NCBI GenBank assembly: GCA_003225465.1
Contig: QIAH01000393.1
Span: 1 to 32,874, forward strand
DNA length: 32,874 bases
Direction of reading: 5' to 3'
Source of the DNA: Acidobacteriota bacterium
GTDB lineage: Bacteria; Acidobacteriota; Terriglobia; Terriglobales; Acidobacteriaceae
Below, one piece after another: positions 8,712-30,744 of the stretch. The position numbers and the translations under genes were made by a program. The first letter of the stretch is position 1; every line of letters starts with the position of its first letter. The notes beneath the pieces were generated by a model that made no database searches, was not told the DNA's origin, and saw nothing but the letters and a program-made list of their open reading frames with translations.

Positions 8712-8732
8712 CCCTATTCCCAATCTCCCTGG

Positions 8733-8882: not shown

Positions 8883-8962
8883 CGATGGATCTCCTTCACT
8901 GTTCGCAACCCGCTCAAGCTGACCTAAGCCCGGATGTTAACCAACTCGCGATCAGATGGACA

Positions 8963-9001
8963 GCATACTCATGGATGCCAGCCAGTCGCATCCAGCCATG
9001 C
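8963..9001. other. imperfect hairpin in the 204-bp gap downstream of the second beta-helix gene
   Basis: TGGATGC (8972-8978) pairs with GCATCCA (8988-8994) around a 9-nt loop. GCAT (8963-8966) and ATGC (8998-9001) can extend the stem with internal loops. It is the main structure in the gene-free stretch 8883-9086. With no U-run on the minus strand, it could be a processing or attenuation site inside the EPS transcript rather than a full terminator. Confidence 0.35.
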
Positions 9002-9086
9002 AATAGCAGGTAGCAAAAAGGAGATTGTTATGGTTGTGAGAGAGTCGGCTGCGCCGTGACGGGGAGGAGTGCTCATGGAGTCAAAC

Positions 9087-10871: not shown

Positions 10872-10904
10872 GGCACCTCCATAAATCAAATCGTTCGGAC
10901 CATA

Positions 10905-10958
10905 ATGGAGAGACGGGCGTCCTCGCCCGTCCGGCAGGCGAGACGCCCGCCGCTCCAT
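10905..10958. repeat. compact copy of the palindromic repeat, back-to-back inverted pair
   Basis: The left half (10907-10932) matches the 26-bp end of the 2180-2374 element at 24 of 26 positions, including GACGGGCGTCCTCGCCCGTC. The right half (to 10956) is a diverged inverted copy ending GCCGCTCC. The outer ends ATGGAG/CTCCAT also pair. It sits between the fusion gene and the second beta-helix gene within the EPS block and would form strong RNA hairpins that could set relative expression. Confidence 0.75.
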
Positions 10959-10962
10959 AAGC

Positions 10963-13152
10963 TCATTTTGCCTGTCGTACGGCGACGCTGGTTTCGCTTG
11001 CTTCTCCGAGGCCATTCCCTGCAAGCCAGTCCGCCATTCGGCCAACATTGTCGTCGCTCGTGTCAAGTTCGAGTGCCGCCTTCACCTCTTCGTAGTGCTC
11101 GCGCACGAACTGAAGCTTCTGCACCATATCGGCCGCGCTGGTATCAGAATAAGTGACCACTCCCGCAGGCCGGCGCCCGTTCTCGCTGGCAACCACTGGT
11201 ACGCCCAGCGCTAAGGACTCCAGCACCGAAGCCGCAACCCCGTCACAAGCGGGTGTCCTCAAGTATACGAAGCACCTGCTCAACAGAGTGAGGAACTGGT
11301 CATGCATGAGATTCCCCAACAGCAGCAAGCTCGCACGCTCCTCTTCTGACCATCCTCTGACGAACTCCTCGGCAGCGGCCATCTCTTTGCCAGGAAACCC
11401 AAGCCAGATATATCCGGCTTTAGGGTCCTGCTCCCGATATCGCCTCATTCCCTCGCGCAAGATCTCCAGCCTGTATTCCGGACGGAAGGAGACGTACGAA
11501 AGGAATACTCGAGAATGGTTCTGGAGAAAGCTCTCGATCTGCTCGCCTAAATTCACGTGAGAGAACTCCAGGTACTGCGGTGAAAACGTCGCGATCGACC
11601 GCACCTTCTCCGGATTAATCCCGTACTGCACAATCGCATCCTGAATCGGCTCACTGTCGCATGCGATCTCCCCCGCCAGCTGAAAAAGTGCGTGAAACGC
11701 AACCTGCGCGAGACTCCGGTCATTGCGCGGAAAATAGTCCTGGGAGAGTCCTCCGTGAAATGTCACCTGTGCAGGAAGGTTTACCGCCCGCCCGGTCAGC
11801 GCTGTTGCCAGAGCCAGCAGATATCCTTTCTTCGACATACCGTTGACGTGCACATTCAACCGGTAACCGCGAAGAGCGTAGGACCAGATTTTCTTCAGGA
11901 AGTCGGCCCCACCCTGCACATCCACGTACTCCGGGCTCTTGATTTGCCGCCCTTCGTTGATCTTCAGCACTTCACAAATGTGACCACGGCGCCGCAACTC
12001 CTCCGCCACCAGCTTCAACTGCATCGCCCAACCGCACATGGGAGGCGGATAGTTTCCGATCTGGAGAATTCGAACTGGACCTTCCAGCCCATCGCCGGAA
12101 TGCGTCGAGTCTTCGCCCCCCAAGCTGAGGTCCAGGTCGCGGCTCGAGAACCAACGGCCGAGCGGAGTCTTTGTCTTCAGCATCAGCTTCGAGCTGAAGT
12201 ACGCATCGTAAATGGCCCGCATCCTTGCCGAGCTGGCCGAAGCCACAGTTTTGGCGTGTTCCGCCCCGACCCCGTAACCCAGAGACTCCAGTGTCCCGCC
12301 GATCAGTTCCTCGACATCCTCCAATTGCTGCCCTGACAGAGATGTTTTCCAACGGGCCACCGGACGGAACTCTCCAGAACCTGCCTCCTTGCCAAAAGAA
12401 CTGTTCGGCCGGCTTACCGAGCCAATTCCAACCCGCTGAATCTTGGCGTAGTCCAATTCCTGCCCGATGAAGTCTCCAATACCCGCCAACACCTCTTGCG
12501 GACTTTGCACCAGATCTTCGTAGTGGATCTCTTTGTAATCCGCTCCCAGCGCTTTGCCGTTCTCACGACCTTTGTTTATCACCCATTCCCAATAGAGCGC
12601 CGCCGCCTGAAGTTCCTTGCCGCGATCCCACGGCAGAGGTCGAATCCAGTGCTGCCTCTCGAGCGAAAGCGCGACGTCCCGGCCATCGCGGATGATGTGG
12701 ATCACCAGGGCATCGGGTATCGTTTCTTTGATCCGTTGCATAGCCAGAAGATGATCCGGCGTACAGTCAGCCCACCGTTCCATTCCCTGCTTGCGGCCCA
12801 TGGCATCCATGACGATGCGCAGGAAATCGCCCCCATTTCCGCAGTTCGCCATGACTTCTTTTTTAAGCTCGACCGCATCCAGTCCGGTTTTTGTGAAGAG
12901 GCTGCTGTGTTCCCAGGCCTCCAGCAGCGCAGCCTTGTTGCGGTCCACCCGCAGATCACCAAAGCGCGGTTCCAGCAGATTGAACACCTGCGATTCCGCC
13001 CGGTACACGACAAAATTTCCAGCCGACAACAGCATGTGGTAAAGCAAGGTCGTGCCCGAGCGCGGACACCCCAGCACGAAAACCGGCGCCTTGCTGCGCG
13101 AACTCGCCCACGAGGTTTTGTCTAGGCCAATCGTTGTCTCGGTGGTTTCCAT
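10963..13152 (-). CDS. sulfotransferase-glycosyltransferase fusion protein
   Basis: This 729-aa protein has two enzymes in one frame. Residues about 22-325 form a PAPS-dependent sulfotransferase: the 5'-phosphosulfate loop is VFVLGCPRSGTTLLYHML (about 24-41) and the 3'-phosphate site is IIRDGRDVALS (about 153-163). After a short hydrophilic linker (about 326-357), residues 358-700 form a GT-B glycosyltransferase. It opens with VRILQIGNYPPPMCGWAMQL and carries the family 4 type donor-site pattern GVAASVLESLALGVPVVAS (about 638-656). The reading frame is continuous with no stop or frameshift at the join. It lies 36 bp after the AsnB stop in the EPS block. The likely role is to add a sugar and a sulfate to the EPS repeat unit in the cytoplasm. 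The sulfotransferase fold could instead have another acceptor; that part is uncertain. Confidence 0.85.
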   Translation of the reverse strand: METTETTIGLDKTSWASSRSKAPVFVLGCPRSGTTLLYHMLLSAGNFVVYRAESQVFNLLEPRFGDLRVDRNKAALLEAWEHSSLFTKTGLDAVELKKEVMANCGNGGDFLRIVMDAMGRKQGMERWADCTPDHLLAMQRIKETIPDALVIHIIRDGRDVALSLERQHWIRPLPWDRGKELQAAALYWEWVINKGRENGKALGADYKEIHYEDLVQSPQEVLAGIGDFIGQELDYAKIQRVGIGSVSRPNSSFGKEAGSGEFRPVARWKTSLSGQQLEDVEELIGGTLESLGYGVGAEHAKTVASASSARMRAIYDAYFSSKLMLKTKTPLGRWFSSRDLDLSLGGEDSTHSGDGLEGPVRILQIGNYPPPMCGWAMQLKLVAEELRRRGHICEVLKINEGRQIKSPEYVDVQGGADFLKKIWSYALRGYRLNVHVNGMSKKGYLLALATALTGRAVNLPAQVTFHGGLSQDYFPRNDRSLAQVAFHALFQLAGEIACDSEPIQDAIVQYGINPEKVRSIATFSPQYLEFSHVNLGEQIESFLQNHSRVFLSYVSFRPEYRLEILREGMRRYREQDPKAGYIWLGFPGKEMAAAEEFVRGWSEEERASLLLLGNLMHDQFLTLLSRCFVYLRTPACDGVAASVLESLALGVPVVASENGRRPAGVVTYSDTSAADMVQKLQFVREHYEEVKAALELDTSDDNVGRMADWLAGNGLGEASETSVAVRQAK

Positions 13153-13188: not shown

Positions 13189-15165
13189 CTAGCGCGCAGG
13201 CACTCCTGGCGCAACGGAAGGTGGCTCGGTCATCGCTGTGGCAGAACCCCGGCTCATGTCTGTCGACGCGATCCTCGGCGCGGTCGCCGTCCCCCGGCTT
13301 GCTCCTGCTTCCATGAAATTCCTGTGCCACAATTCCAGCACCAGCATGCGCCACAAAATCCCGGAACGATTCCGCCTTCCGCGCGTATGTTCATCGATCA
13401 AGGCACGCACAGCATCGGGTTTAAAGTAGCCGCGCTGCAAGGTGCGCTCCTCGAGCAGCACCCTGAGATACTGATCCTTCATGCTGTCGCGCATCCATTC
13501 GACCAGCGGCAACTGGAAACCCTGCTTGCGCCGATGCAGCAGTGCAGGCGGGATCCCGAGTCGCTCCGCCAACTTCTTCAAAATGAATTTCCGAGTCCCG
13601 GTACGGAATTTCCAATCGACCGGCAACGCTGCCACCCACTCCACGAACTCATGATCCAGCATCGGAACCCGCACCTCAAGCGAGGTTGCCATGCTCATTC
13701 GATCCACTTTCGCGAGAATGTCCGCGGTCAAGTAGGTTTTGGTATCGAGATAGAGCAAGCGGCTCAACGAGTCCTTGGCGGGCGCGTGGTCGTAGTAGTG
13801 CTGCCACTGCTCCAGCGGATTCGGCAGATGTTCGGCGGCTCGCAGGAAATCCTTCGAGAAAAGGCTCCTCTCCCGGTGCAGCACGGGCAGGTAGGAAACG
13901 TCATCCAGATAACGATCCCGCGCCGTCAACGACGCGTTCCAGGCGAGATTCTTTCCAAACATGCCGGCAGGCACCCGGTGGTGCACTTGATCCCGATAAA
14001 TCCTGCCCAGCCAGTTCGGGATGCGGTCAAACTTTCTCCGCTCCATCGCAACCAGGTAGCGGTCATATCCGGCAAATAACTCGTCGCCTCCGTCTCCCGA
14101 CAACGCCACCGTCACATGCTGCCGCGCCATCCGGCTTACGTAGTACGTCGGCAACATCGAGGAGTCGCCGAAAGGCTCTTCCAGCATTCCGGAAAGAAAC
14201 GTCAGCGTCTCTTCAAGATTGGGATTCAGGATTAATTCATGGTGATCTGTCCCGAACCTCTCAGCCACCAGTCGCGCGTACTCTGCCTCATTGAATTTTT
14301 CCGCTTCGAAACCAATCGAGAACGTCTTCACCGGCTGCGAAGTCACCCGCGCCATCAACGCAACGATGATGGAAGAATCAACTCCACCGCTGAGAAGCGC
14401 GCCCAATGGCACGTCGCTGATCAGCCGGATCCGGAGCCGCCGCTCCAGTTCCTCCAGGCAATCCTCTTCCGACATGGCCGCCTGCGTCCCATATTCCGGT
14501 AAGTCCCAAAATTCGCGAATGCTGGTTCGGCCGTTGCCGTATTCCATCAGGTGACCGGGCGGCAGTTTGTGGATGCGTCGAAAAGCGGTGTGTGGATCGG
14601 GAATGTATCCAAAGTAGAAATATTGCAGCAGCCCCTCAGGGTTCACTTCCGCAAGTTCAGGAGCCACTGCAAGGATCGTCTTGATCTCTGAGCCAAACAG
14701 CAGACGTCCCTGATGCACGGCGTAGTGCAAGGGCTTTTTTCCTAAACGGTCGCGCGCTAGAAGGAGCGATTGCCGCCGTTCGTCATACAAAGCGATCGCA
14801 AACATGCCGCGTAGCTTCTTGACGCAGTCCGCCCCCAACTCCTCATAGAGATGAACGATGATTTCGGTGTCGGTATGCGTGTAGAACTTGTGGCCGCGTT
14901 GTTCAAGCCCACGCCGCAGTTCTGGAAAATTGTAGATTTCGCCGTTGTAGACGATCCAGATGCTTTTGTCTTCGTTGTGGATGGGCTGGTGGCCACCGGA
15001 CAGGTCAATAATGCTTAGACGCCGCATTCCCAGGCCAACTGGGCCCTGGGCGTAGATGCCCTCATCGTCCGGTCCGCGGTGCACGATGCTCTGACACATC
15101 CGGTGCACCTGAGCGGCTTCCACCTGCTCGTCGGGCCGCCCGACCATTCCGGCTATTCCACACAC
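13189..15165 (-). CDS. asnB: AsnB-type glutamine-dependent amidotransferase (exosortase/EPS-locus type)
   Basis: This 658-aa class II glutamine amidotransferase has the asparagine synthetase layout. The N-terminal Ntn domain begins MCGIAGMVG, so Cys2 becomes the nucleophile after Met removal, and it carries HRGPDDEG and YNGEIYN. The C-terminal synthetase domain has the PP-loop LLSGGVDSSI and the later SGDGGDELFAGYDRY and KVDRMSMATSLEVRVP motifs. All key residues are present. It starts at GTG 15165, overlapping the methyltransferase stop by 13 bp, so the two are coupled. AsnB homologues in polysaccharide loci are thought to amidate uronic acids or other sugar acids rather than make asparagine. 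I infer that role from context. The last ~40 residues are a Pro/Ala/Thr-rich tail. Confidence 0.92.
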   Translation of the reverse strand: MCGIAGMVGRPDEQVEAAQVHRMCQSIVHRGPDDEGIYAQGPVGLGMRRLSIIDLSGGHQPIHNEDKSIWIVYNGEIYNFPELRRGLEQRGHKFYTHTDTEIIVHLYEELGADCVKKLRGMFAIALYDERRQSLLLARDRLGKKPLHYAVHQGRLLFGSEIKTILAVAPELAEVNPEGLLQYFYFGYIPDPHTAFRRIHKLPPGHLMEYGNGRTSIREFWDLPEYGTQAAMSEEDCLEELERRLRIRLISDVPLGALLSGGVDSSIIVALMARVTSQPVKTFSIGFEAEKFNEAEYARLVAERFGTDHHELILNPNLEETLTFLSGMLEEPFGDSSMLPTYYVSRMARQHVTVALSGDGGDELFAGYDRYLVAMERRKFDRIPNWLGRIYRDQVHHRVPAGMFGKNLAWNASLTARDRYLDDVSYLPVLHRERSLFSKDFLRAAEHLPNPLEQWQHYYDHAPAKDSLSRLLYLDTKTYLTADILAKVDRMSMATSLEVRVPMLDHEFVEWVAALPVDWKFRTGTRKFILKKLAERLGIPPALLHRRKQGFQLPLVEWMRDSMKDQYLRVLLEERTLQRGYFKPDAVRALIDEHTRGRRNRSGILWRMLVLELWHRNFMEAGASRGTATAPRIASTDMSRGSATAMTEPPSVAPGVPAR

Positions 15166-16166
15166 TGCGCGACCCCCGCGGTTTCTCGTGCCGAATTTTC
15201 GCGTTGTACTGGCGGCCGGGTCCCCTGCACCGCAATCGGCTGTTCGATCACTCGCAAATCCTGTAATCCGCAGCTTTCGAACCAGCGGAAGACTTCTTCA
15301 TAGGTATGTTTGGACTGATACCAAGGCGAATACCAGTCGAAGGTGTCCAGGACACGCCAGGTCGCGTCCTTGTTATGAGACATCGGGATTGCCCACGCCA
15401 GCGCGCTGCTGGCAGGTTTCCCGACCAGCGGAACCTTCTTCAGAACCGAATGGACCCCATACAGGGGCACCACAACTTTGCACAGCCGATGTAGTTTCTC
15501 CGGAGCCATGCGCCGGGTCCACTTGCGATAGACGTCGCTCATCCGGTACCAGGGGTTGTAAGAACTGTATAGCCAGATTGCGATACGTCCACCCGGTTTT
15601 AACAGTTTGGGAAGCGCCTTGAAGGCCTGTTCGCAATCCGGAGTGTGATGCAGGACGCCAATGCTATAGATGTAATCGAAACTTTCAGGAGCAAACGGTA
15701 ACTTGAAAACATCCGCCTGGAAGATCGTCGCGCTTCGATCCGCCAGATTTTTGGCTGCCACTTCCGAAGCCAGGCTCAGATCAATCCCAACCACGTGCGC
15801 CCCCCACCGCGTCGCCACTTCCGCGAATCGCCCCATCCCGCAGCCCACATCGAGCACAAGTTTGCCGGCAAGATCTTCCGGGCGAAACCCGGTACGTCTC
15901 CGGAACGCTCGCTCCGATCTCTGGCTGCTGGCATCATCCAACTGGGTTCGCGAGTAAAGCTTCCATTGAAAGCCAAAGCTCCCCGCATAGTTCTGCGCGT
16001 CCACAAAACGAAGCACGCCATTGAGCAGTGGATACTCTCGCCCGCACTGAAGGCACACCAAACCGCCCGCGCCCGAGGCCAGTCCGCCTTGGCAGTCAAG
16101 ACAACCGAGAATCGCTAGGACTTCTTCACCGACTCCAGGCAAGTTCACGTTCTCTGTTTTCGCCAT
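15153..16166 (-). CDS. SAM-dependent methyltransferase with N-terminal zinc-ribbon (Trm112-like) region
   Basis: This protein of about 337 aa has an N-terminal region with two Cys pairs (GCLDCQGG and CLQCGREYP), a small zinc ribbon as in Trm112-like fusions. A class I methyltransferase core follows with motif I VLDVGCGMGRF, acidic GIDLS, ADVFKLPFAPESFDYIYSIGVLHHTPD and LLKPGGRIAIWLY. The last third is an EPS-locus type extension. It probably methylates a sugar or lipid-linked glycan. The start is uncertain: the track uses GTG 16205, and ATGs lie at 16202, 16190 and 16166. I chose 16166 (MAKTENVNLPG) because it leaves the shortest overlap (41 bp) with the upstream gene; no candidate has a strong ribosome site. 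It is coupled to AsnB downstream. Confidence 0.85.
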   Translation of the reverse strand: MAKTENVNLPGVGEEVLAILGCLDCQGGLASGAGGLVCLQCGREYPLLNGVLRFVDAQNYAGSFGFQWKLYSRTQLDDASSQRSERAFRRRTGFRPEDLAGKLVLDVGCGMGRFAEVATRWGAHVVGIDLSLASEVAAKNLADRSATIFQADVFKLPFAPESFDYIYSIGVLHHTPDCEQAFKALPKLLKPGGRIAIWLYSSYNPWYRMSDVYRKWTRRMAPEKLHRLCKVVVPLYGVHSVLKKVPLVGKPASSALAWAIPMSHNKDATWRVLDTFDWYSPWYQSKHTYEEVFRWFESCGLQDLRVIEQPIAVQGTRPPVQRENSARETAGVAQCVE

Positions 16167-17493
16167 ACCCAAGTTTTTCCCGACTGCCATTTTGGGGATC
16201 ATCACTCGCCGTGCTCGTTACCTCCGCAGGTTTGGAGGCAATTCGGGAGAGCGCGCAGATATAACCCACGATGAAATAGGGGAACAAGTTGTACTCCGTC
16301 GAGGCAAACAGCGCACCTGCTGCGTAGCCTGCCAACGCGGCCCACAACGCGCTGGTCCAGATTCGAATCTCAGGATCGGTCTTGTACCCCGGCAACTTGT
16401 ACACCCGCTTGATGCGACCCATCGAAACGAACAACAACGCGAAAAAAAGACCAAGGGCTGGGATCCCTCCCTCCGCTCCGAGTTCCGTATACGTGTTGTG
16501 CACCACGCGCCACTCTTCCGTGATGGCCGGGAAGTTTCCGGGGCCCACCCCAAAAATCGGGTGATGCAACATCAGGCTTATGCTCTCCTTCAGTAGTGCC
16601 GTGCGCTGCTCCAACGACCCTTCTCCATGCGCCTCCATGCTCCCTTCGGAAAGAGAGCTGGCGCCAGGCCGTTGAAACAGGCTTGCCATGCGCGACCGGT
16701 ATTTCGGAGATGCGACCAATCCTCCCAACGCGAGCACTCCGAGAATCATAGTGACGCCCAATAGCATGAACCGGCGCCCTTTCACTCCAAACTCCCACAA
16801 GCAGACCATGGCCGTGATCATCATCGCGATCATCCCGCTGCGCGAGTAAGTGGCCACCACCCCGACCAGCAAGCAGATCAGCGCGAACGACCACAATAAC
16901 TTCCGCATGCCTCCCTTGGAGGCGAACATGAAGGCCATGCACAAGGGGAAATTGATGGCAATATTGATCGCCAGGTCATTGGGGTTCTCGAGGATCCCCT
17001 TTTGGATCCCCATGAGTCGTCCGTCCTCGGTGTGGTGCACGATCAGCGACGCAATTGTAACGATCGCCACCGCCGAAGCCTGAATGTAGAGGAGCCGCCG
17101 CAGCCAGCTGATCTTCGTGACCACCAGCGATATCAAAAGCGCAATGATCACGCCCTTCGAAAACTTGTTGATGACCGTGTCAAACGCTCCTCCCCTCCAG
17201 AACGCGGTGGGGATCGTCAGAAGCAGGTGCGCCAGCAGAAAAAGAAGAATCTTGCCCTCGAGCGGGATTTTTCCTCGTTCTGTCCGCTTGACTCCGAAAA
17301 TAAGAGCTGCCAGCGCGATTCCCCCCGCGATCTTTCCTAATGGCACATACGTCAGTCCAGGAATGAAGTCTTCCGGACGAAAGAAGTAGACCACCGAGAA
17401 AAATACCAGCGCTCGATAAGCGAGCGTAGCTCGGGGCGTCTGAGCAGGAGCCATGACCCAGCCGGATTCTTGAAATTGCAGTTGCGTGCTCAT
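16126..17493 (-). CDS. O-antigen ligase/Wzy-like polymerase, exosortase-locus type
   Basis: This polytopic membrane protein has 455 aa and about 11-12 helices. It carries the Wzy_C-type periplasmic loop with the patterns RTALLKESISLMLHHPIFGVGPGNF and VHNTYTELGAEGGIPAL (catalytic-loop His and HN.Y…E.G signature). A pair of Arg/Ser residues in TYSRSGMIAM also fits the family. It is either the EPS polymerase (Wzy) or an O-glycosylation ligase; exosortase loci carry both kinds and sequence alone does not separate them. It is the only such protein in the window, so polymerase is more likely. It starts at ATG 17493, 60 bp after the GT2 stop. Confidence 0.87.
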   Translation of the reverse strand: MSTQLQFQESGWVMAPAQTPRATLAYRALVFFSVVYFFRPEDFIPGLTYVPLGKIAGGIALAALIFGVKRTERGKIPLEGKILLFLLAHLLLTIPTAFWRGGAFDTVINKFSKGVIIALLISLVVTKISWLRRLLYIQASAVAIVTIASLIVHHTEDGRLMGIQKGILENPNDLAINIAINFPLCMAFMFASKGGMRKLLWSFALICLLVGVVATYSRSGMIAMMITAMVCLWEFGVKGRRFMLLGVTMILGVLALGGLVASPKYRSRMASLFQRPGASSLSEGSMEAHGEGSLEQRTALLKESISLMLHHPIFGVGPGNFPAITEEWRVVHNTYTELGAEGGIPALGLFFALLFVSMGRIKRVYKLPGYKTDPEIRIWTSALWAALAGYAAGALFASTEYNLFPYFIVGYICALSRIASKPAEVTSTASDDPQNGSREKLGYGENRERELAWSR

Positions 17494-17553: not shown

Positions 17554-18675
17554 CTATCGAGTCCAGGCTACTTTCCGTCTCGCTACGAAGTTCGCAAACG
17601 CCACCATTGCCGCCGTATTCAAGACCACAAATGTGAAGGCCGCATCCCCGGCTCGCGCGATCGGTCCCATTTTTACGCGCGCCATCCCGATCAGGCTCAA
17701 CCCGTAAAACGCCAACTGCAGGAAGAAAGCTCCCCGGTAAAAATGCTGAGGCAGCAAAGCCGACGCCAGCAGGGCGGCCAGAAGAGCGAAGGGAACGAGC
17801 AGTCGCAGGATTTTGTGACTGATGAATTCGAGTCGGATCGGGTTCGCCCTGCTCCATAGCCATGGCATCATCTGCAACAGCTGATAGTTGCCACTCAGCG
17901 TGCGCACCTTCCTCGCGAACTCTCGTTCCGCGCCCAGGTCGGGAACATCCCACGCCCGCGCCCGCGGCTCGAAAACCACCCTCTTACCTGCCTTCACCAC
18001 CTGCATCGGAATAAACACATCATCGAGCAGCGTCTCGGGCGGCACCGCCGGCAGCAATTCGCGCCGAACCCCGTAAAACGCCCCGGTCGCGCCCACCACC
18101 GACCCTGACGCCGATTCCAGTTCCCGCACGATCTTTTCAATTCTCCAGTACAAGCCCATCCCCTGGCTCTTCTCACCGGCGCTGGAATCACCCAGCATCA
18201 GCTCGCCGCTTACGCAGCCCACCTGCGGATCCGCAAAGTTGCTCAGCAAAACCTGCAGGCCAGTCGGTTCGATCTGTTGCCGCGCATCGGTGAAAATCAC
18301 AATCTCCCCGTGCGCAATATTGAAGGCATCATTCAAGCCGGATGCTTTTCCGCGCGAAAGCTGATTCAATACTCCATGCACGTTGGGACGCCGTGCATAC
18401 TCCCGGAGGATAGCTTCCGTGCGGTCCGTCGATCCATCCGACACTACGATGATTTCGATCTGGTCCTCCGGATAGCTCAGCCCCAGAAGATTTTCGAGCT
18501 TCCGCTCGAGCACGCCTTCCTCGTTCCGCACCACCATCACAACCGAGACGAATGGCTGAACCGATCCCAACAGCACCGGCATCGGACTCAGGCGGCACCG
18601 CAACCAGAGCCATAGCGGATATCCCGCGTACGTGTACCCGATCAGCGCGACGGCTCCCCAGAATACCCATGTCAT
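17554..18675 (-). CDS. family 2 glycosyltransferase, membrane-anchored
   Basis: This 373-aa GT-A enzyme has one N-terminal helix (about 4-24), the catalytic domain (about 40-270) and three C-terminal helices (about 290-365), the layout of processive or EpsL/IcaA-like GT2 proteins. The motifs are VSVVMVVRNEEG, VVSDGSTDRT (nucleotide site), IFTDARQQ in the place of the usual DxD, and LLDDVFIP near the acceptor site. The track ORF starts at 18960, but the first 95 codons shadow the upstream gene. ATG 18675 overlaps the sugar transferase stop as ATGA, a sign of coupling. Its likely role is to add a sugar to the lipid-linked EPS unit at the cytoplasmic face. Confidence 0.9.
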   Translation of the reverse strand: MTWVFWGAVALIGYTYAGYPLWLWLRCRLSPMPVLLGSVQPFVSVVMVVRNEEGVLERKLENLLGLSYPEDQIEIIVVSDGSTDRTEAILREYARRPNVHGVLNQLSRGKASGLNDAFNIAHGEIVIFTDARQQIEPTGLQVLLSNFADPQVGCVSGELMLGDSSAGEKSQGMGLYWRIEKIVRELESASGSVVGATGAFYGVRRELLPAVPPETLLDDVFIPMQVVKAGKRVVFEPRARAWDVPDLGAEREFARKVRTLSGNYQLLQMMPWLWSRANPIRLEFISHKILRLLVPFALLAALLASALLPQHFYRGAFFLQLAFYGLSLIGMARVKMGPIARAGDAAFTFVVLNTAAMVAFANFVARRKVAWTR

Positions 18676-20045
18676 TGCGCGCCTCGGCCCAGCAGGACGA
18701 TCTTGATCGTCTGGAACATGATCAGAATGTCCAGACCGAGAGACGCATTCTTGATGTAGAACAAGTCGTACTGCAGCTTTTCCTTGGCGTCCTCGACGGT
18801 ATTGCCGTACTTGTAGCGAACCTGCGCCCAGCCAGTAATCCCGGGCCGCACGGCGTGGCGCACGCCGTAATAAGGAATTTCCTTGCTGAGCCACTCCACA
18901 AATTCCGGACGCTCCGGCCTCGGTCCCACAAAAGCCATGTCGCCCTTGAACACGCACCACAACTGCGGAATCTCATCGATGCGCGACATTCGCAAAAATT
19001 TCCCCACCCTGGTAATTCGAGGATCATCGTCGTCTGCCCAGGTCGGCCCGGTATCGGCCTCCGCGTCTTGCCGCATCGTGCGGAACTTGTAGCAGTAGAA
19101 GTTGTGGCCGGCGCGTCCCACTCGCTTCTGCCGGTAAAGCACCGGCCCCCTGGAATCCAGCTTGATCGCCAGGATCACGAATGGCAAAACGGGCAGCACG
19201 ACAATCAGCAGGGTGAACGCCATCAGTGTCGACAGCGCTCGCCGCATCAGGTTGAAGCTCGTGCTGAACCGGAAGCCGTCGGCGAAAATCAGCCAGCTCG
19301 GATACAGCTGTTCAACTTCAATCCGCCCCGAGATCTTTTCCAGCCACGAAGTCGCTTCCTCGATGCGTGCGCCATTCAGTCGCAACTGCAGCAATTCTTG
19401 AACCGGAAAAGTTCCGCGGCGATCCGGCATGGCCACGATCACCCGGTGCACGTGATGCGAGGCTGCTATTTCCATCAAGTGGGCCGCGACCGATTCGCGC
19501 GTCAGCGCGCCCTCCACGTTCCCGCTCCAGCCGATGACGTCGATTCCCAATTCCTTCCGCTGCCGCAACCCGAGCACCAGTCGTTGCGCGCGCTCGCCCG
19601 TTCCCAGGATGTAGACCTTTTCCTGCATGAAAGCCTGTTGCACAAGCCACCCATAGGCCGCGCGCCAACCCACCAATCCCATGGTCAGCAGCACCAGGGC
19701 AATCAGCGAGGCATTGTTCCCGGGCAGGACATACGGGAAGAAGTAGCCGACCACCGCGAGGAACAGCGCGAACAGGCCGGGTACCAGGAACAGACGGAAG
19801 TACATTTCGCCCTTGGCGTCAAACTGGGCTGAGTCGTACAGGTCAAACCAGTGGGAGCAGATCAGCACGACCAAGGTTGCGACCAGCACCTTCACATACC
19901 CGTACTGGTAGTTCAGTACGATGTAGCGATCGTCCGGGAACGCCAGCAACACGCCCAGCAGAAACGACAGGAATACCACCGTCGTCTCCACCGCCAGCAG
20001 CACCAGCGTGCGGACCGGGTAGTAGACATTGAACAGTCGGATCAC
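18672..20045 (-). CDS. polyprenyl-phosphate sugar-phosphate transferase (EPS-initiating, EpsB/WcaJ type)
   Basis: This 457-aa protein begins glycan assembly by moving a sugar-1-phosphate onto undecaprenyl phosphate. Four N-terminal helices (to about 125) and a nucleotide-binding-like domain (VYILGTGERAQRLVLGL) precede a fifth helix (about 265-285) and the bacterial sugar transferase domain. That domain has YRQKRVGRAGHNFYCYKFRTM, RMSRIDEIPQLWCVFKGDMAFVGPRPERPEF and PGITGWAQVRY, so the catalytic core is intact. The layout and length match the sugar transferase usual in exosortase/PEP-CTERM EPS loci. It starts at GTG 20045, 12 bp after the kinase stop. Confidence 0.93.
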   Translation of the reverse strand: MIRLFNVYYPVRTLVLLAVETTVVFLSFLLGVLLAFPDDRYIVLNYQYGYVKVLVATLVVLICSHWFDLYDSAQFDAKGEMYFRLFLVPGLFALFLAVVGYFFPYVLPGNNASLIALVLLTMGLVGWRAAYGWLVQQAFMQEKVYILGTGERAQRLVLGLRQRKELGIDVIGWSGNVEGALTRESVAAHLMEIAASHHVHRVIVAMPDRRGTFPVQELLQLRLNGARIEEATSWLEKISGRIEVEQLYPSWLIFADGFRFSTSFNLMRRALSTLMAFTLLIVVLPVLPFVILAIKLDSRGPVLYRQKRVGRAGHNFYCYKFRTMRQDAEADTGPTWADDDDPRITRVGKFLRMSRIDEIPQLWCVFKGDMAFVGPRPERPEFVEWLSKEIPYYGVRHAVRPGITGWAQVRYKYGNTVEDAKEKLQYDLFYIKNASLGLDILIMFQTIKIVLLGRGAQ

Positions 20046-20057
20046 AGGTCGCCCTTG

Positions 20058-21002
20058 TTACGCCTTCTGTCTTGCCGTCTTTTCGTACGACTCGTAGTAG
20101 TAACGCGAGTAGTAGGAATCCGAACGCATGATGCCGTTCAGCACGACTCCCACCAGAAGCTTCCCTTGAAATTCCTGGCGCGCTTTTTGCGCGGTGTCGT
20201 ACGGTGTCGCATTCGAGCGCACCACCATCAGCACACCATCGCAGAAGTTCGCAAGCTGGCTGGCATCCGAGACCGGCACGGCGGGAGGCGAATCAACGAT
20301 GATCCAGTCGAACAACTGCTCCACTCGCTGCAGAAGCATCTTCAGCCGGCCGTTCGCAATCAGTTCCGCAGGATGCGTCACCGTGCGCCCGCATGGCACA
20401 AAAAACAGGTTCTCCATTGGACCGCGCTGCATGATGGAAAACTCGTCGCTCTCGCCCATGAGATAATCCGCCAGCCCCGGCGACGAAGTTGTCCCCAGCG
20501 CGCTGTGTAAACGGGCCACCCGCAGGTCTCCATCGATCAGCAGTACCCGCCGTCCATGTTGCCGCACGAGCACCTGTGCGAGATTCGCGGCCACGAACGA
20601 CTTCCCTTCTTGCGGAAGCGCGCTGGTAACCAGGATTTTCTTTACCGAAGCTTTTTCCCGCATCTGGTAAAGACGCGAACGCAGCGTCCGGAACTGTTCC
20701 GTTCCTAACGCGTTCTCTTCCGGGTTGAAAAACAGCATCGTCTTTTCATCCGGCTTCCACTCACCCTGCGCGCAACGCGCCAGCAGCGTGTCAAAGGTGA
20801 AGGAAGTAGTGAATGACGGTGTCCCTTGGCCGTTTCCAGGAGTTCCCGGCGCGGCCGCTTTTGAAGCCTGAGCCGTTTCCGGCATCGCGGGCACAGATTC
20901 GGTCGCGGGCAGGTCCATGACGGGCGTACCATCCGTGCGGGTGCCCTGAGATGCGGCCCTCTCCTGTTCAGCTCGCTTCAGTGCTTCGTGAATTCGGCTC
21001 AT
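20058..21002 (-). CDS. BY-type tyrosine autokinase, exosortase/EPS-locus type
   Basis: This 314-aa cytoplasmic kinase controls EPS polymerisation. The start MSRIHEALKRAEQERA is the characteristic N-terminal helix of these proteins. A low-complexity Pro/Ala/Thr linker (20-65) follows. The kinase domain has Walker A SALPQEGKS (about 127-135), Walker A' VLLIDGDLR (about 153) and Walker B DWIIVDSPP (about 232). The C-terminus holds a tyrosine cluster, YYSRYYYESY (297-306), with six Tyr as autophosphorylation sites. The kinase has no membrane part and would pair with the Wzz-type protein encoded two genes upstream. The ATG overlaps the ATPase stop as ATGA. Confidence 0.93.
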   Translation of the reverse strand: MSRIHEALKRAEQERAASQGTRTDGTPVMDLPATESVPAMPETAQASKAAAPGTPGNGQGTPSFTTSFTFDTLLARCAQGEWKPDEKTMLFFNPEENALGTEQFRTLRSRLYQMREKASVKKILVTSALPQEGKSFVAANLAQVLVRQHGRRVLLIDGDLRVARLHSALGTTSSPGLADYLMGESDEFSIMQRGPMENLFFVPCGRTVTHPAELIANGRLKMLLQRVEQLFDWIIVDSPPAVPVSDASQLANFCDGVLMVVRSNATPYDTAQKARQEFQGKLLVGVVLNGIMRSDSYYSRYYYESYEKTARQKA

Positions 21003-21961
21003 GATTTCCTCTCTTTAGGCAGGTCTTGTTCCGATTGTCGCAGCCGGTCGGCCAAGGTCGCCAGCGTGCGCAATGCTTCTACTAAGTCAAACTTCTCACC
21101 ATTGCTGGGCGCAGGCTGCGCCGGCACCGTCATGGCTCCTGACGCCACATTGTCGCTAAGATCAAAGTCGCGCGCGACCGCGTCCACGATGCTTTCGTTG
21201 ATTGTCGGCTTCTGATCCACGAATGCGCTCACTAGACAGTGCTCGCACAGCAGATTCACAACCCGCGGAATCCCGTTCGAGTACTTGTGAATGGAATTCA
21301 GCGCGTCCCCATCGAAAATCTGCCGCCCATCCGACCCCGCAATCCGCAGTCGCTGCTGCACGTAAGCTTTCGTTTCTTCCAGGGTCAGCGGATGTGTTTT
21401 CGCCCGCAACGTCAGGCGCTGGCGCAGCTGGCGCAACTGCGGCATCTTGAGTTTCGTTTCCAGCTCCGGCTGCCCCACCAGCACGATCTGCAGCAGCTTC
21501 TCCGTGAAGGTCTCGAGATTGGTGAGCATGCGGATTTCTTCGAGCACTTCATCCGTCAGATTTTGTGCCTCGTCCACAATCAGCACCGCGGTTTCGCCCG
21601 CGCGGTAACGATCGAGCAGCCAGTTGTACAGGCGCTGCAGGATCTGGCTCTTCGACTTCGAATCACACTGAATGCCGAAGTCCGCCATCATGTAATCGAG
21701 AAACTGGGGCACGTTCATGCGCGAGTTGAAGATGAACGCCGTTGCTACCTGCTGCAACCGCAACCATTCCAGCAGCTTGTTGATCAACGTAGTCTTGCCC
21801 GTGCCCACTTCGCCGGTCAGCAGAACGAACCCTTTTCGGCTCTGGATGCCATAGGTCAGGCATGCCAAAGCCTCCTCCGTATGCCGCGTCAGGAACAGGT
21901 AACGCGGGTCCGGATTCACATTGAACGGATTCGCCCGTAGTCCAAAGAACTCTTTATACAT
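20999..21961 (-). CDS. ExeA-like AAA ATPase, exosortase/EPS-locus type
   Basis: This 320-aa ATPase starts MYKEFFGLRANPFNVNPDPRY, the hallmark of the ExeA/GspA-like family found in exosortase loci. Walker A is LTGEVGTGKTTLI (about 48-60) and Walker B is VLIVDEAQNL (about 125). Sensor motifs follow in QIVLVGQPELE and the C-terminal lid contains IPRVVNLLCEHCL. There is no peptidoglycan-binding domain at the C-terminus, unlike ExeA. Its precise role in EPS export is not established in the family. It lies 9 bp from the Wzz gene and is coupled to the kinase by ATGA. Confidence 0.9.
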   Translation of the reverse strand: MYKEFFGLRANPFNVNPDPRYLFLTRHTEEALACLTYGIQSRKGFVLLTGEVGTGKTTLINKLLEWLRLQQVATAFIFNSRMNVPQFLDYMMADFGIQCDSKSKSQILQRLYNWLLDRYRAGETAVLIVDEAQNLTDEVLEEIRMLTNLETFTEKLLQIVLVGQPELETKLKMPQLRQLRQRLTLRAKTHPLTLEETKAYVQQRLRIAGSDGRQIFDGDALNSIHKYSNGIPRVVNLLCEHCLVSAFVDQKPTINESIVDAVARDFDLSDNVASGAMTVPAQPAPSNGEKFDLVEALRTLATLADRLRQSEQDLPKERKS

Positions 21962-21970
21962 ACTGGTCGC

Positions 21971-23530
21971 CTAGACCCCGACTTTCTCTCCGTTCGTTTC
22001 TCCGGCTGATTTGTACCGATTCCAGAATTTTCCGTTGCCGTTCGCCGGCAGATCCTCCGTCACCCAAGGCAGCGCCACCAGCACGGGCATCTGCAGGCTG
22101 GCAAGCACGTCGGCTTCGTTGCGGATCGACTTGTCCCTCAACTCCACCCACAGCGCCAGGCCGAGCCCAATCACCAGTCCGCCGCCCAGGCCGCCGGCCG
22201 CAAACAACAGCCGGTTCGGAAAACTCGGCGATTCGGGTAAGCTGGCTGCGTTCAACAGGTGCATCTGCTCTCCCTGCTGACGTTTTTCCATGTCGGTAGC
22301 CATTTCCGAGGTGCTTCTCTTCGCCAGCAAGTCTGCGTAAAACTTCTGGGCCGTATCGTAGTCACGGGTCAATTGCTTGTACTTTTCCTCTACTTCAGGA
22401 CTGATTGCGACCCGGCTCTGATAGTTTCGGATCTGATCACTCAGCCGCTTCTGCTCGCGCGTCGCCTGGGTCAGCACGTCTTCGTACTGGTGAACCTGCA
22501 AGCGCAATTGGCGGATCTCCGGCGGCTCCGAAGCACTCGCCTTCAAGGTCGGGTCCGGCCCCTTGGCCGCCGCGGCGTTCACTTCCGCCAGTCTCTTTTT
22601 CACCTCGGCAATGTCCGCCTTGGTCTTGATCACGTCTGGGTGATCTTCGGTATAACGCGCCTGCAGCGAGAGAAGTTGACTCTGCAGGGTCGTCAACTGG
22701 GTCTCCAGACTCTGCGGATTCGTACTTCCCTGCGCGGACTTCCAGGCTGCCAGTTGCTGCGCCAGCAACGATTCCGTGTAAGCTTTGTCTTGCTGCGCCC
22801 GGTTGACCGTCTGGGTATTGGCATCCAGCTGCGAGTTCAGTGTGCCCAGTGCTTTCCAGTTGTTATCTTCGTCGCCCGGCAATTGACCCGAGTATTGCCT
22901 CTTGAACTGTGCCAGCTTCGCATCCTGCTCATCCAGATTTCGCTTGGCTTCCTCGAGTTGCCGGCTGATGAAGGCGGTCGTGTTCTCAGCTACTGCCTCG
23001 CGCGAGTTCTGAAATTCCGTCAGGATGGCCGACGTCAGGTCGTTGCACACATCTTGCGCGTCCCGCGGATTGGCGGTCGTAAAGGTTACATAGAAGCCCG
23101 GCACGGCACTGCCCTGCCCTGGTTTCCTCCTGCCGCCGGTGTTTCCAATCGCGCTGAGATCCGTGACCACCGGCTCGATCTGTACGCTTGCGCGCACGTC
23201 TTCCAGAACATCGTCAAGGCTCTTGCCGCCGTTGAACAATCGCTGCCGCTTCTCCACGATCGGCTGCAGGCGGTTTCGCCCCAGGACCTGTTGCTGCATG
23301 GTCGCAATCCGCTGCGCCAGGTCCGCGGTGACCACCGGCTGCACTACCCCCTCGGGAACCTTCTGCCCCTCCACCAGCACCAGCGCCTGCGAGGTGTATT
23401 TCGCAGTAAAGGCGTAGGAGATCAGGAAGCCGACCAGCGGCGCCAACAGCGCCGGAATCAGAATCAATTTCAGGCGCCGGCGGAACATCGCCAGGTAGTC
23501 GTCCAGCGTCAGATCGCGATTTTCAATCAT
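21971..23530 (-). CDS. Wzz-type polysaccharide chain-length determinant protein
   Basis: This 519-aa inner-membrane co-polymerase starts MIENRDLTLDDYLAMFRRR and has a first membrane helix (about 22-42, LILIPALLAPLVGFLISYAF). A long periplasmic part follows with coiled-coil stretches (about 190-270 and 330-420, rich in Gln, Lys and Glu). A second helix (about 455-475, LLFAAGGLGGGLVIGLGLALWV) carries a Pro/Gly-rich approach, SLPESPSFPNRL, typical of Wzz proteins. The C-terminus is short and cytoplasmic, without a kinase domain, which fits the separate tyrosine kinase gene. The length matches exosortase-locus Wzz proteins. Confidence 0.92.
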   Translation of the reverse strand: MIENRDLTLDDYLAMFRRRLKLILIPALLAPLVGFLISYAFTAKYTSQALVLVEGQKVPEGVVQPVVTADLAQRIATMQQQVLGRNRLQPIVEKRQRLFNGGKSLDDVLEDVRASVQIEPVVTDLSAIGNTGGRRKPGQGSAVPGFYVTFTTANPRDAQDVCNDLTSAILTEFQNSREAVAENTTAFISRQLEEAKRNLDEQDAKLAQFKRQYSGQLPGDEDNNWKALGTLNSQLDANTQTVNRAQQDKAYTESLLAQQLAAWKSAQGSTNPQSLETQLTTLQSQLLSLQARYTEDHPDVIKTKADIAEVKKRLAEVNAAAAKGPDPTLKASASEPPEIRQLRLQVHQYEDVLTQATREQKRLSDQIRNYQSRVAISPEVEEKYKQLTRDYDTAQKFYADLLAKRSTSEMATDMEKRQQGEQMHLLNAASLPESPSFPNRLLFAAGGLGGGLVIGLGLALWVELRDKSIRNEADVLASLQMPVLVALPWVTEDLPANGNGKFWNRYKSAGETNGEKVGV

Positions 23531-23572
23531 TGCCGTGTTTCCATTCTGGCTACCTTCCCCGGTAGCCTTGAA

Positions 23573-25033
23573 TTAATCGATCCGGATCGGCCGGAAGTGC
23601 CAGTCCACGCCGATGGTCGCCACATGTCGTACAGAGATTCGGTTGCAGAACGTCCCCACCACAGGGCAAGTATCAAAAATCTGGTCGTTCCACTGATACC
23701 CCAGGAAGGCTCCCCAGTTGTAGCCAAACTGCCTGCGCACGGTGAAGCCTGCGAACGCATAGTTGTAGGAGGTCGCAGCAACGCCCAGTGCGGCCGATTG
23801 CAACCGCTGATTGTGAGCAAAGCCCACATTCCCGGCCGCGTTGTACTTCCTTCCCAGGACCCGTGAAATCTGGAAGCTCGCGACGTTGCTCTGCGCGCCC
23901 GCAAAAAATCCTGACCCGTTGCTATCGAAGCGCACAAAACTCAGTGACGTAGCCGTCTGCTTGAAGCGGTACCGCAGAATCGCCCGCCCGGCCACGGACA
24001 ACCGGTTATTTGTGCCGGTGAAAGGCTCCTGAATTCGCGTCCACTGAGGGCCCGCGCCAATCTCGAAGTCCATTCGCCCCGAAACGCGGTGACCGTACAT
24101 CCCTTGCACCACGTGCGACGTAACATTGTCCGCCCCGACCTCCGCTGGAAAATGGAACGACTGAAACCCGTAGGTCACCGCAATCTGATCCTTGCGGCTA
24201 ATGGAATAGTTGTATCCACCTTGAACGGCTGCCTGCTGGCTGTTGATAAACCCCTGCGTAGAATCCGTGAAGTGCACCAGCCCGTAGGAACCTGCGGCTG
24301 TCACCGATGACCGGGGACTCAATCCCTGAACTGCCTCCAGCATGGTGACATTGTTAAATCGCGGGGATTGGCCTAGCGACCCAACTGTCCCAGAGCCCAG
24401 AATTCCGAACTGACCTCCGAACTGCCCTCCAAAGCCGCTGCCCAACACCCCCATTCCAGCGCCCAGACCACCTAAGCCCAGCTGGAAGCCGCCGGCACCG
24501 CCAAAGGAGCCACCCCCGAATTCACCCTCGGGCAGATAGCTGAATGAATCGCGAATCGTAAGCTGCCCGGTTCTCCACAACACGGCTGCTTGTGCCTGCA
24601 AGTCATGAACTTGCCGCCAGCCATTGCCGGCCGCGTTGTAGTAGGTCGCGCCACCCACATACGCACCTTCCACTTGGTAGCGGCTCCACAGCCTCTGCAG
24701 CGTCAGGCCTGCGAGCGCGTGCGACACTGAGTGCCAGGCTGGCCTGGCATCGCTGCCAATGTTCGAGTCCAGCGATTCGGCGGCTTCCACACCGCCTAAC
24801 AGCATGCTGCGTGGCTGAATGTTCGGCTCCAGCGAAGGCTGGTCCAGTGCCGAAATCGGCGGATTGTCGTTCACAACCACCGCCGGCGCCTCCTGCCCGA
24901 ACGCGGGAGCTGGCGTATTCCTCTGCGAATCGTCCGGAGCCTGCCCGGTTCCGGCATCGGTCTGTCCCACGGCCATCATCGCGCTCAGCAATAGCCACAG
25001 CAACAGACAACCCATCTTCCGAATTTTCGTCAT
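23573..25033 (-). CDS. outer-membrane beta-barrel protein of the EPS locus, with a glycine-rich insert
   Basis: This exported protein has about 486 aa. A signal peptide (MGCLLLWLLLSAMMAVGQ) is followed by a Pro/Ala-rich stretch and then alternating amphipathic strands, with aromatic residues closing many of them and a final strand near IGVDWHFRPIRID. The layout resembles outer-membrane proteins of PEP-CTERM/exosortase EPS loci. An insert of about 50 residues (about 170-221) is mostly Gly, Phe, Leu and Gln (GGGSFGGAGGFQLGLGGLG…). ATG 25033 lies 8 bp after the export gene stop; the track uses TTG 25054. The role is probably to help EPS leave the outer membrane beside the Wza-like protein. The family call is moderate and rests on context. 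Confidence 0.8.
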   Translation of the reverse strand: MTKIRKMGCLLLWLLLSAMMAVGQTDAGTGQAPDDSQRNTPAPAFGQEAPAVVVNDNPPISALDQPSLEPNIQPRSMLLGGVEAAESLDSNIGSDARPAWHSVSHALAGLTLQRLWSRYQVEGAYVGGATYYNAAGNGWRQVHDLQAQAAVLWRTGQLTIRDSFSYLPEGEFGGGSFGGAGGFQLGLGGLGAGMGVLGSGFGGQFGGQFGILGSGTVGSLGQSPRFNNVTMLEAVQGLSPRSSVTAAGSYGLVHFTDSTQGFINSQQAAVQGGYNYSISRKDQIAVTYGFQSFHFPAEVGADNVTSHVVQGMYGHRVSGRMDFEIGAGPQWTRIQEPFTGTNNRLSVAGRAILRYRFKQTATSLSFVRFDSNGSGFFAGAQSNVASFQISRVLGRKYNAAGNVGFAHNQRLQSAALGVAATSYNYAFAGFTVRRQFGYNWGAFLGYQWNDQIFDTCPVVGTFCNRISVRHVATIGVDWHFRPIRID

Positions 25034-25040
25034 GCGATCA

Positions 25041-25664
25041 TTAGGGGACGACAATGGTATCTCCCGGTTTCAAGATGATGTTCTGCTCGACCGATTCCCC
25101 CTTGATCAATGCCCGGTAATGCACGGGGATCTTCTGTTGTTTGCCGTTTTCGTTGCGCAAAAGGTAAATTCCCTTGGTGTTGGCAAACTGTGTAAACCCC
25201 GCACTTGCAAGCGCCTGCAGCACCGTCATGTTTGGTTGCAGAATGGTGCTGCCGGGCTTCACGACTTCGCCCAGGATATAGATTTTTTGGCTGTTCATCG
25301 CCGTGACCACCACCGTCACGCGTGGATCCGAAATGAACTTCTTCAGCTTGGTGGTAATCGCGTCCGCCAATTGGGTCGGCGTCAACCCCGCCGCGACCAC
25401 GTCATTCAACAGGGGAAGCGAGATCTTTCCATCCGGCCGCACCGGCAGCGTCTCCGTCAGGTCCGGTTCTTTCCATACCGAGATGTGCAGCACGTCATCC
25501 GCGCCGATGATGTAGTCCGGTCCTGCTACCGACGTCGGCTCGCTTTGTGCTTTATCGGCGGCTGGCTTCGCCTCATCCTTCGCCTTCGCAGTCGCTTGTC
25601 CCCAAGCGCTTGTGGCTAACACTCCAGCCAGCAGAAACATTCCAAACTTGTTAGTACGCTTCAT
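25041..25664 (-). CDS. Wza-type polysaccharide export protein
   Basis: This 207-aa periplasmic/outer-membrane export protein has a signal peptide MKRTNKFGMFLLAGVLATSAWGQA with no lipobox Cys. A charged Ala/Lys linker follows, then the polysaccharide export domain (PDYIIGADDVLHISVWKEPDL, SLPLLNDVVAAGLTPTQLADAI) and an SLBB-like domain (KIYILGEVVKPGSTILQPNMTVLQALASAGG-like region). It is short compared with Wza (about 380 aa), as is usual for exosortase-locus homologues. ATG 25664 has AGGAGAGGAA just upstream; the track's 25691 start would overlap the regulator gene. It is the first transport gene after the regulator. Confidence 0.92.
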   Translation of the reverse strand: MKRTNKFGMFLLAGVLATSAWGQATAKAKDEAKPAADKAQSEPTSVAGPDYIIGADDVLHISVWKEPDLTETLPVRPDGKISLPLLNDVVAAGLTPTQLADAITTKLKKFISDPRVTVVVTAMNSQKIYILGEVVKPGSTILQPNMTVLQALASAGFTQFANTKGIYLLRNENGKQQKIPVHYRALIKGESVEQNIILKPGDTIVVP

Positions 25665-25677
25665 TTCCTCTCCTGAA

Positions 25678-26643
25678 CTATGACGCTCCATAATCCTGGT
25701 ACCCGATCTGTTTCAACTTATAGAGCAAGGCCTTGTAGCTGATCTGCAACTCCTGCGCGGCTCGCCTGCGGTTCCAGCGCGTACGTTGCAAGACCTTCAA
25801 GATCAATTCCTTCTCCGCTTCTCGCGAGGCCGCTCGCGACGCTTGTTTCAAGGAAATGCGCTCTCCGTTTCCTCCGCGTTCCGACCTCATCAGCAGCGAA
25901 CGCAATCCGCCCATTGCGACCGACTCGTCTCCCAGCGCCACAATCGCCTTCGCCGCATCTTCCAATTCCCCGATATTCCCCGGCCAGGCGTATTCCTCGA
26001 ACAAGTGCTGCGTCGCGGGGCTGAGCTTTGGAACTGGCCGCCGAAAATCCTGTGCGTACTTCATGAGAAAGAAGTTCACCAGCGCTGGAATGTCTTCCTT
26101 GCGCTGTCGCAGCGGAGGCAGTCGCAGACACACACCGCTGATCCGGTAATACGTATCTTCTCGAAAACGCTCAGCCTTAACGTCCGCTTCCAGATCGCGA
26201 GCGCTCCCACAGATCAGCCTCGCACGCGTTCCGTGCCCGTTGCCGTTCCCTTCGACCTTGGGCAACACGTTCAGGAGACCCTCCTGGCAGCTCGAACTAA
26301 GGTCCGCGAGCTCCTCCAAGTACACCGTGCCGCCGCCAAACAACCCAGCGCTTCCTCGCTCTCCCTCGCCGAACATCTCCTCGGACATATCGGCACAAGC
26401 AACGACCCGGAAGGGCTCCGCATGATGGCTCGACATTTGATGAATCCGTTCCGCAGTAGCTCTCTTTCCAGCCCCGGTCTCGGAAAGCAGGAGAACGGGG
26501 ACCTCGCTTCGGGCCAGTTCCCGAATCACTGCTTCCAGCGCCTTCATGCTCTGGCCCAGCCCCTCGACAAAATCGCGTCCGAGCAAATCCGGACCGCGCA
26601 CAGTGCCCTTTGCTTCAACGAATTGCGGGAAATCTTTCGCCAT
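25678..26643 (-). CDS. NtrC-like AAA+ regulator lacking the GAFTGA loop
   Basis: This 321-aa protein has a short N-terminus without a receiver or PAS domain, a sigma54-activator-type AAA+ domain (about 20-245) and a Fis-like helix-turn-helix (about 278-314, LKVLQRTRWNRRRAAQELQISYKALLYKL). The arginine-finger region (RFREDTYYRISGVCLRLPPLRQRKEDI) is well kept. Other parts are not: Walker A reads SETGAGKR (first Gly is Ser), Walker B reads VYLEEL (Asp is Glu), sensor II reads PGNIGEL (usual Arg is Gly), and the GAFTGA loop is missing, with ERGSAGLFGGGT bridging the gap. It therefore probably cannot remodel sigma54 holoenzyme. It heads the EPS block, 13 bp from the export gene, and is likely its local regulator, perhaps acting with sigma70 or as a repressor. 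Confidence 0.85.
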   Translation of the reverse strand: MAKDFPQFVEAKGTVRGPDLLGRDFVEGLGQSMKALEAVIRELARSEVPVLLLSETGAGKRATAERIHQMSSHHAEPFRVVACADMSEEMFGEGERGSAGLFGGGTVYLEELADLSSSCQEGLLNVLPKVEGNGNGHGTRARLICGSARDLEADVKAERFREDTYYRISGVCLRLPPLRQRKEDIPALVNFFLMKYAQDFRRPVPKLSPATQHLFEEYAWPGNIGELEDAAKAIVALGDESVAMGGLRSLLMRSERGGNGERISLKQASRAASREAEKELILKVLQRTRWNRRRAAQELQISYKALLYKLKQIGYQDYGAS

Positions 26644-29655: not shown

Positions 29656-30744
29656 ATGCTATCTGAGCTTTATGGTCCTCGAACGGTTGTAACGTTTGTA
29701 GAAGGGCCCAAATTCTGTCCAGGAGCTGATAATCATCCGATTGGACGGGCGGCCATCCTTGGTAACGAAAGTCACAGATCAGGCAATCACCGATTGCGCC
29801 ACGCCCGCAGTTCTACTATCCTTGCGAATATTCCGCTTACAACTTGCGTTTTGAGCCACGCTGTCCAAACCGCGCATTTGACCGTCGAACCACCGCCAGT
29901 GTCGCAATCGCGAGTGCCCCTTTGGCAAATCGTGGTGCTGCTGGGCGTGCTGGCTTGGCTTTACGCTCCTGTCCTCACACACCTGGTGGGCCAGTGGTCG
30001 CACGATCCCAATTATTCCCATGGCTTCTTCGTCCCGGCGTTTTCCTTTTTTGTGATCTGGAGCGAGCGTGATCGGCTGCGAAAATTACCTCTCGAAGCTT
30101 CCTGGTCGGGGCTGCTGGTGCTGGCGTTTGCGCTGATCGTTTTGACGGCCGGCGTTCTGGGCGCCGAACTCTTCCTGTCCCGGTTTTCCTTCTTGCTGGC
30201 CATTGCCGGCCTGGTCGTCCTGATCTACGGATGGAATCATTTCCGCGCCGTCTTCTTTCCGTGGGCGTTCCTGTTGTTCATGATTCCCATTCCCGCCATC
30301 GTTTTCAACCAGATTACGTTCCCGCTGCAGTTGCTGGCTTCGCGCGCAGCCGCGCACACTTTGCCCTGGCTTGGGGTTCCAGTGTTGCGCGAGGGAAACA
30401 TTATCCAGTTGCCGGCCATGGCGCTGGAAGTGGCGGAAGCTTGCAGCGGAATTCGCTCCCTGATGTCCTTGACCACATTAGCCATTATTTACGGCTATCT
30501 TCTGGAGACTCGAACCCCCATTCGCGTTCTGCTGGCGCTCGCCTCGGTTCCGATCGCAGTCATTGCGAACAGCCTGCGCATCATCGGCACCGGCCTGCTG
30601 GTGCAATATTGGGACCCTGACAAGGCGCAAGGCTTTTTTCATACCTTTTCTGGATGGCTGATTTTCGTCGTGTCCCTGGTCTTGCTCTTCTTGCTGCACC
30701 GCGCTCTTCAAGTGTTCTGGAACAAGGGAGGCGCGCGCGCATGA
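29656..30744 (+). CDS. exosortase (EpsH-type transpeptidase)
   Basis: This integral membrane cysteine protease/transpeptidase cuts and anchors PEP-CTERM proteins. Eight or so helices start near residue 90 of this frame. The catalytic triad is visible: Cys263 in VAEACSGIRSL, Arg308 in ANSLRIIG and His329 in FFHTFSGW. The early motif DPNYSHGFFVP is also typical. The frame from ATG 29656 has 362 codons, and GGAG precedes that ATG. The first ~65-80 codons have A/T-rich third positions and no exosortase similarity, so the true start may be a TTG or GTG near 29851-29914; it is unresolved. EpsI is encoded separately just downstream, not fused as in many proteobacterial EpsH proteins. Confidence 0.9.
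   Translation: MLSELYGPRTVVTFVEGPKFCPGADNHPIGRAAILGNESHRSGNHRLRHARSSTILANIPLTTCVLSHAVQTAHLTVEPPPVSQSRVPLWQIVVLLGVLAWLYAPVLTHLVGQWSHDPNYSHGFFVPAFSFFVIWSERDRLRKLPLEASWSGLLVLAFALIVLTAGVLGAELFLSRFSFLLAIAGLVVLIYGWNHFRAVFFPWAFLLFMIPIPAIVFNQITFPLQLLASRAAAHTLPWLGVPVLREGNIIQLPAMALEVAEACSGIRSLMSLTTLAIIYGYLLETRTPIRVLLALASVPIAVIANSLRIIGTGLLVQYWDPDKAQGFFHTFSGWLIFVVSLVLLFLLHRALQVFWNKGGARA

Follow-up and report, generated by a model that had tools for sequence, protein, structure and literature searches.

Results

The window analysed here, 32,874 nucleotides that make up the entire contig C570, belongs to a genome of 6.15 Mb in 590 contigs that is 95% complete. The nearest named match is an Acidobacteriota MAG, in agreement with the affiliation suggested by an earlier note made from the sequence alone. 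One gene in the window joins a PAPS-type sulfotransferase (ST) to a GT-B/GT4-like glycosyltransferase (GT) and lies among genes for EPS assembly and export (Table 1).

Table 1. Features of the window, with the subdivisions of the fused gene.
Feature	Position	Strand	Basis
Fused gene, 729 aa, ST - linker - GT	10963..13152	-	Translation; fusion kept in G001
GT-B/GT4-like glycosyltransferase domain, residues 359-729, D637-x7-E645	10966..12078	-	PF00534
Linker, residues 341-358, former ST tail and former intergenic sequence	12079..12132	-	Standalone ST/GT boundaries
PAPS-type sulfotransferase domain, residues 1-340	12133..13152	-	PF13469, E 1.7e-26
Asparagine-synthase-like amidotransferase (AsnB-like)	13189..15165	-	TIGR03108-like, 659 bits, under 817-bit equivalog cut-off
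SAM-dependent methyltransferase	15153..16205	-	Pfam
O-antigen ligase/polymerase (Wzy_C)	16126..17493	-	PF04932
GT2 glycosyltransferase, true start downstream of listed one	17554..18960	-	PF00535
Initiating glycosylphosphotransferase EpsB_2 (XrtA system)	18672..20045	-	TIGR03013 above cut-off
Tyrosine kinase, ATPase, chain-length determinant, OMP-like, export protein, sigma-54 regulator (EPS export/regulation)	20058..26643	-	NCBIfam
Exosortase XrtA and EpsI	29656..31388	+	TIGR03109, TIGR02914

The gene runs from an ATG at 13152 to a stop at 10963. The uninterrupted 729-codon frame described in the earlier note is continuous and holds the expected motifs, but it lies on the minus strand; the plus strand of the same interval has stops throughout. 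Translation, Pfam matches and motifs all agree with the claim of a single polypeptide carrying two complete domains, ST N-terminal and GT C-terminal. Each quoted motif is in place: GCPRSGTTLLYHML (residues 28-41), RDGRDVALS (155-163) and ESLALGVPVVAS (645-656). The join, previously put near residue 326-358, does fall there but is narrower, at about 341-358, and the domains are separated by only about 18 residues. A single-sequence AlphaFold model of the fusion, the structure prediction proposed in that note, was of low quality (pLDDT 35.6).

The AsnB-like gene is directly upstream in the same direction, and the fused gene starts 36 bp after it. As had been proposed, this is a true exosortase locus of the XrtA (PEP-CTERM) type. 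The XrtA model TIGR03109 scores 214.5 bits against a cut-off of 208, and EpsI and EpsB_2 are present; TIGR02914 and TIGR03013 also exceed their cut-offs, while TIGR03015, TIGR03007 and TIGR03027 score below theirs. A source of PAPS was found as well, in the form of a 580-aa ATP sulfurylase-APS kinase on C162 of the same genome.

Two related large proteins of unknown family are encoded at 3916-6600 (+) and 9087-11066 (-), and in many related loci their relatives adjoin an ST or AsnB gene. At 27092-29459 (-) lies an MBOAT-like acyltransferase (DltB-model match), followed by a gene with no family match that looks SGNH-like by eye. The EPS may also carry acyl groups.

Sulfotransfer_3 (PF13469) matches residues 23-233 of the ST half with 94.3 bits, against a Pfam gathering cut-off of 27. 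This half contains the 5'-PSB motif CPRSGTTLL, E53 and the 3'-PB motif RDGRDVALS. Residues R31, S32, G33, T34, R155 and S163 are invariant among ST relatives, and the fusion has all of them; E53 is nearly invariant and aligns with the glutamate of the tyrosylprotein sulfotransferase motif, which is the catalytic base in those enzymes. By profile and site residues, we predict that the ST half is a PAPS-dependent sulfotransferase that transfers sulfate. A tblastn search of plasmids returned ST-only matches at about 25-30% and no fusion. On contig C590 the genome encodes a second ST, 45% identical to the ST half of the fusion; a GT4 gene lies downstream of it in the same orientation, and its frame overlaps that of the ST by about 67 bp (L028:673-2792).

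In the GT half, Glycos_transf_1 (PF00534) matches residues 544-659 (E 4e-5) with 23.7 bits, slightly under the gathering cut-off of 26.4. Homologues pass this cut-off, both the standalone L059 (26.6) and L064 (34.4). D637 and E645, which form the E/D-x7-E donor-site motif, are invariant in 29/29 relatives. Because the standalone relative clears the cut-off and close relatives share 52-65% identity, the assignment as a GT4-like glycosyltransferase seems safe at the level of sequence. A PDB search with the GT profile gave no match. The L064 relative (7753-9711, -) sits in a frame of 653 aa; the first 276 residues of that frame are without a Pfam match and are possibly a mere open frame upstream of the real start.

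Both halves also exist as separate proteins. The fused protein was matched in 82 of about 400 genomes of the bacterial family, and the fusion itself occurs in only two, both of this genus. A sample of 396 genomes of the phylum held no further ST-GT fusion, and a scan of genome contigs with the fusion as query gave a single match, the GT-only L054. As the comparison covers the family genomes and the phylum sample, such fusions may exist elsewhere, outside the Acidobacteriota.

In 12 loci a standalone ST, encoded on the AsnB strand, fills the slot after AsnB. Six of these (G166, G106, G239, G110, G226 and G006) have Sulfotransfer_3 genes about 55-60% identical over the whole ST half, in the same position as the fusion but as separate genes ending at fusion position ~343, three residues past residue 340 (..KTPLGQLLVTRDLSWI-stop). 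In G080 and G361 the slot instead holds a standalone GT. These GT4-like EPS enzymes, together with those of G116 and G110, are 61-65% identical to the GT half and share its motifs but have no ST attached, and some of their genomes lack the ST family. Standalone GTs begin at fusion position about 356-361 (..KILQIGNYPPP). The end of one and the start of the other therefore indicate that two full-length proteins abut, leaving a linker of about 18 residues. Trees join the ST half to an AsnB-adjacent ST, that of G006, as its sister (support 98/94). The GT half falls into one group with G089 and with the GT that stands beside AsnB in G080; support there is 91/84, slightly short of the starred level.

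Since relatives carry both halves as separate full-length genes, the gene is best described as a lineage-specific head-to-tail fusion. We found no genome in which AsnB, ST and a GT of this lineage stand as separate genes in a row, and we infer AsnB-ST-GT as the immediate precursor arrangement. The simplest history from these sequences would be three such neighbours, of which the ST then lost its stop codon. The partnership of the domains is not obligate, as 7 of the 14 genomes with a GT relative have no ST of this family, which also implies that the GT does not need sulfation. Many genomes have an ST beside AsnB without a close GT relative.

To judge the join, we compared the window with G001 (C686), a 69%-complete draft and the other of the two genomes that make up the genus sample. 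It has the same ST-GT order, with residues 235-726 in one frame that spans the join at 71% protein identity. DNA identity is about 70%, and because of this divergence the join is not the same error made twice. The 18 linker codons have dN 0.83 and dS 0.81, plus a one-codon indel, compared with dN 0.15 and dS 1.5 for the GT half and dN 0.17 and dS 1.7 for ST residues 72-250. By these values, both domains are under purifying selection and the linker is drifting neutrally.

The earlier note had named a sequencing error joining two genes as one finding that would refute its claim, and we rejected this origin: in G001 the two sides of the join remain in one frame and the linker has a different sequence. 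That the contig itself wrongly joined two genes is very improbable and largely refuted by the same independent DNA, even though ours is a draft in 590 contigs and G001, the one relative that shares the join, carries indels in other parts of the gene. The ST part of G001 contains two frame-breaking indels away from the join, at L022:4314 and 4802-4899; one is a short deletion, the other a tandem duplication of 49 bp with a single-base difference between its copies. We read them as strain-mixing assembly errors; decay of that gene copy may be the alternative. Codon 344 (12121-12123) is TTG in the window and ATG in G001, a possible internal start that would give a separate GT product. Taken together, the comparisons show a genuine, conserved and lineage-specific fusion of known enzyme families in a known type of locus.

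STs of this bacterial family have other partners too. A PF13469 scan of 388 family genomes gave a strong match in 107, and we examined eight long ST frames. Three are TPR-STs or lack any known domain other than TPR or ST, two show the ST alone and three join it to EPS machinery. Among the last, G303 encodes an 861-aa ST-WecG/TagA/CpsF glycosyltransferase (L085:790-3372, -), found in one genome. The other two are ST-Wzx flippase frames, of 907 aa in G375 (L086:244-2964, -) and 964 aa in G330 (L087:2317-5208, +), 48% identical end to end over 908 residues. In G268 the relatives of ST and Wzx are separate genes on one strand with about 90 bp between them, and in G097 those of ST and WecG lie separately on one strand within about 1.3 kb. 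Thus, STs of the family repeatedly sit before EPS genes and are sometimes fused to them. The earlier note knew the two halves only as separate proteins, not fused in this order; they do occur separately, but the order is not unique, given the independent ST-WecG frame.

Discussion

The fusion, the completeness of its domains, their conserved motifs, the type of locus, the PAPS genes and the two-gene ancestry are directly supported by the comparisons above. We propose that two adjacent genes in a Wzy-dependent EPS operon of the XrtA type were fused head to tail when the ST stop codon was lost. In the cytoplasm, the GT half would extend the undecaprenyl-linked repeat unit by a sugar, and the ST half would move sulfate from PAPS to this unit or to the newly attached sugar before the unit is flipped and polymerised. 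These steps would yield a sulfated EPS. The donors of both activities are cytoplasmic, and from this we infer that the undecaprenyl-linked repeat unit is the likely substrate. The ST may act on the sugar added by its attached GT or on a neighbouring one. Judged from sequence, a lipid-linked EPS unit is likely to be sulfated and glycosylated in coupled steps, and a sulfated-EPS reading of the locus is plausible; we give the explanation as a whole a probability of roughly 0.6.

A dedicated bifunctional enzyme that couples the addition of a sugar to its sulfation on the lipid-linked unit, in Acidobacteriota whose XrtA loci make sulfated EPS, is a possibility that we put forward tentatively. Stop-loss could also have joined operon neighbours opportunistically, with no coupling, so that each domain keeps its old job and the fusion merely fixes 1:1 expression. 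Each half is also found on its own, often in the absence of its partner, the linker evolves neutrally, and STs of the family repeatedly adjoin or fuse with different downstream EPS genes, as a neighbour-driven process would give. However, both genomes of the genus retain the join (71% identity) and conserve the two domains, and both halves are EPS-locus enzymes. We consider fusion without coupling rather unlikely.

It is more doubtful still that the ST modifies something other than EPS. Searches with its profile hit TPST1/2 structures (E about 1e-9) as well as the CurM sulfotransferase, which would suit a lipid or protein acceptor. Against this, ST genes recur beside AsnB in XrtA EPS loci, the ST is here fused to a GT, and other STs of the family are fused to WecG or Wzx, so we regard such an acceptor as improbable. 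Coupled modification of a lipid-linked EPS unit is the reading that we prefer.

Papers dating from 2021 to 2026 describe a narrow range of bacterial sulfated polysaccharides, coming exclusively from cyanobacteria (PMC8205485, PMC13390465) or from cyanobacteria plus a few marine bacteria (PMC13125312). Among open-licence papers we found nothing relevant on ST-GT fusions of this kind or on exosortase-linked STs in Acidobacteria. The STs that recur in XrtA EPS loci of this acidobacterial family, some fused to a GT, WecG or flippase, lead us to predict sulfated EPS in another phylum, and these genes are named candidates for sulfated EPS in bacteria not known to make one. The ST-GT fusion would also link a single sulfation step with a single glycosylation step, an aid in ordering the assembly of the repeat unit.

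The closest parallels in architecture come from the same bacterial family. Like the fusion, the G303 protein has an N-terminal ST and a C-terminal glycosyltransferase in one frame, but its GT belongs to another family (PF03808) and its ST is just 24% identical to that of the fusion. The ST-Wzx proteins of G330 and G375 likewise join an N-terminal ST to an EPS-assembly protein and are kept in two genomes; their partner, however, is a flippase, whereas that of the fusion is a GT. A functional comparison is offered by the synechan xss cluster of Synechocystis 6803 (PMC8205485), a Wzx/Wzy EPS cluster that contains STs and GTs, like the locus described here. In that cluster ST and GT are separate genes, unlike in the fusion, and one of its STs matches the ST half weakly (26.5% identity). 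The sulfated product of the xss cluster has been demonstrated, while that of the acidobacterial locus is predicted from its genes.
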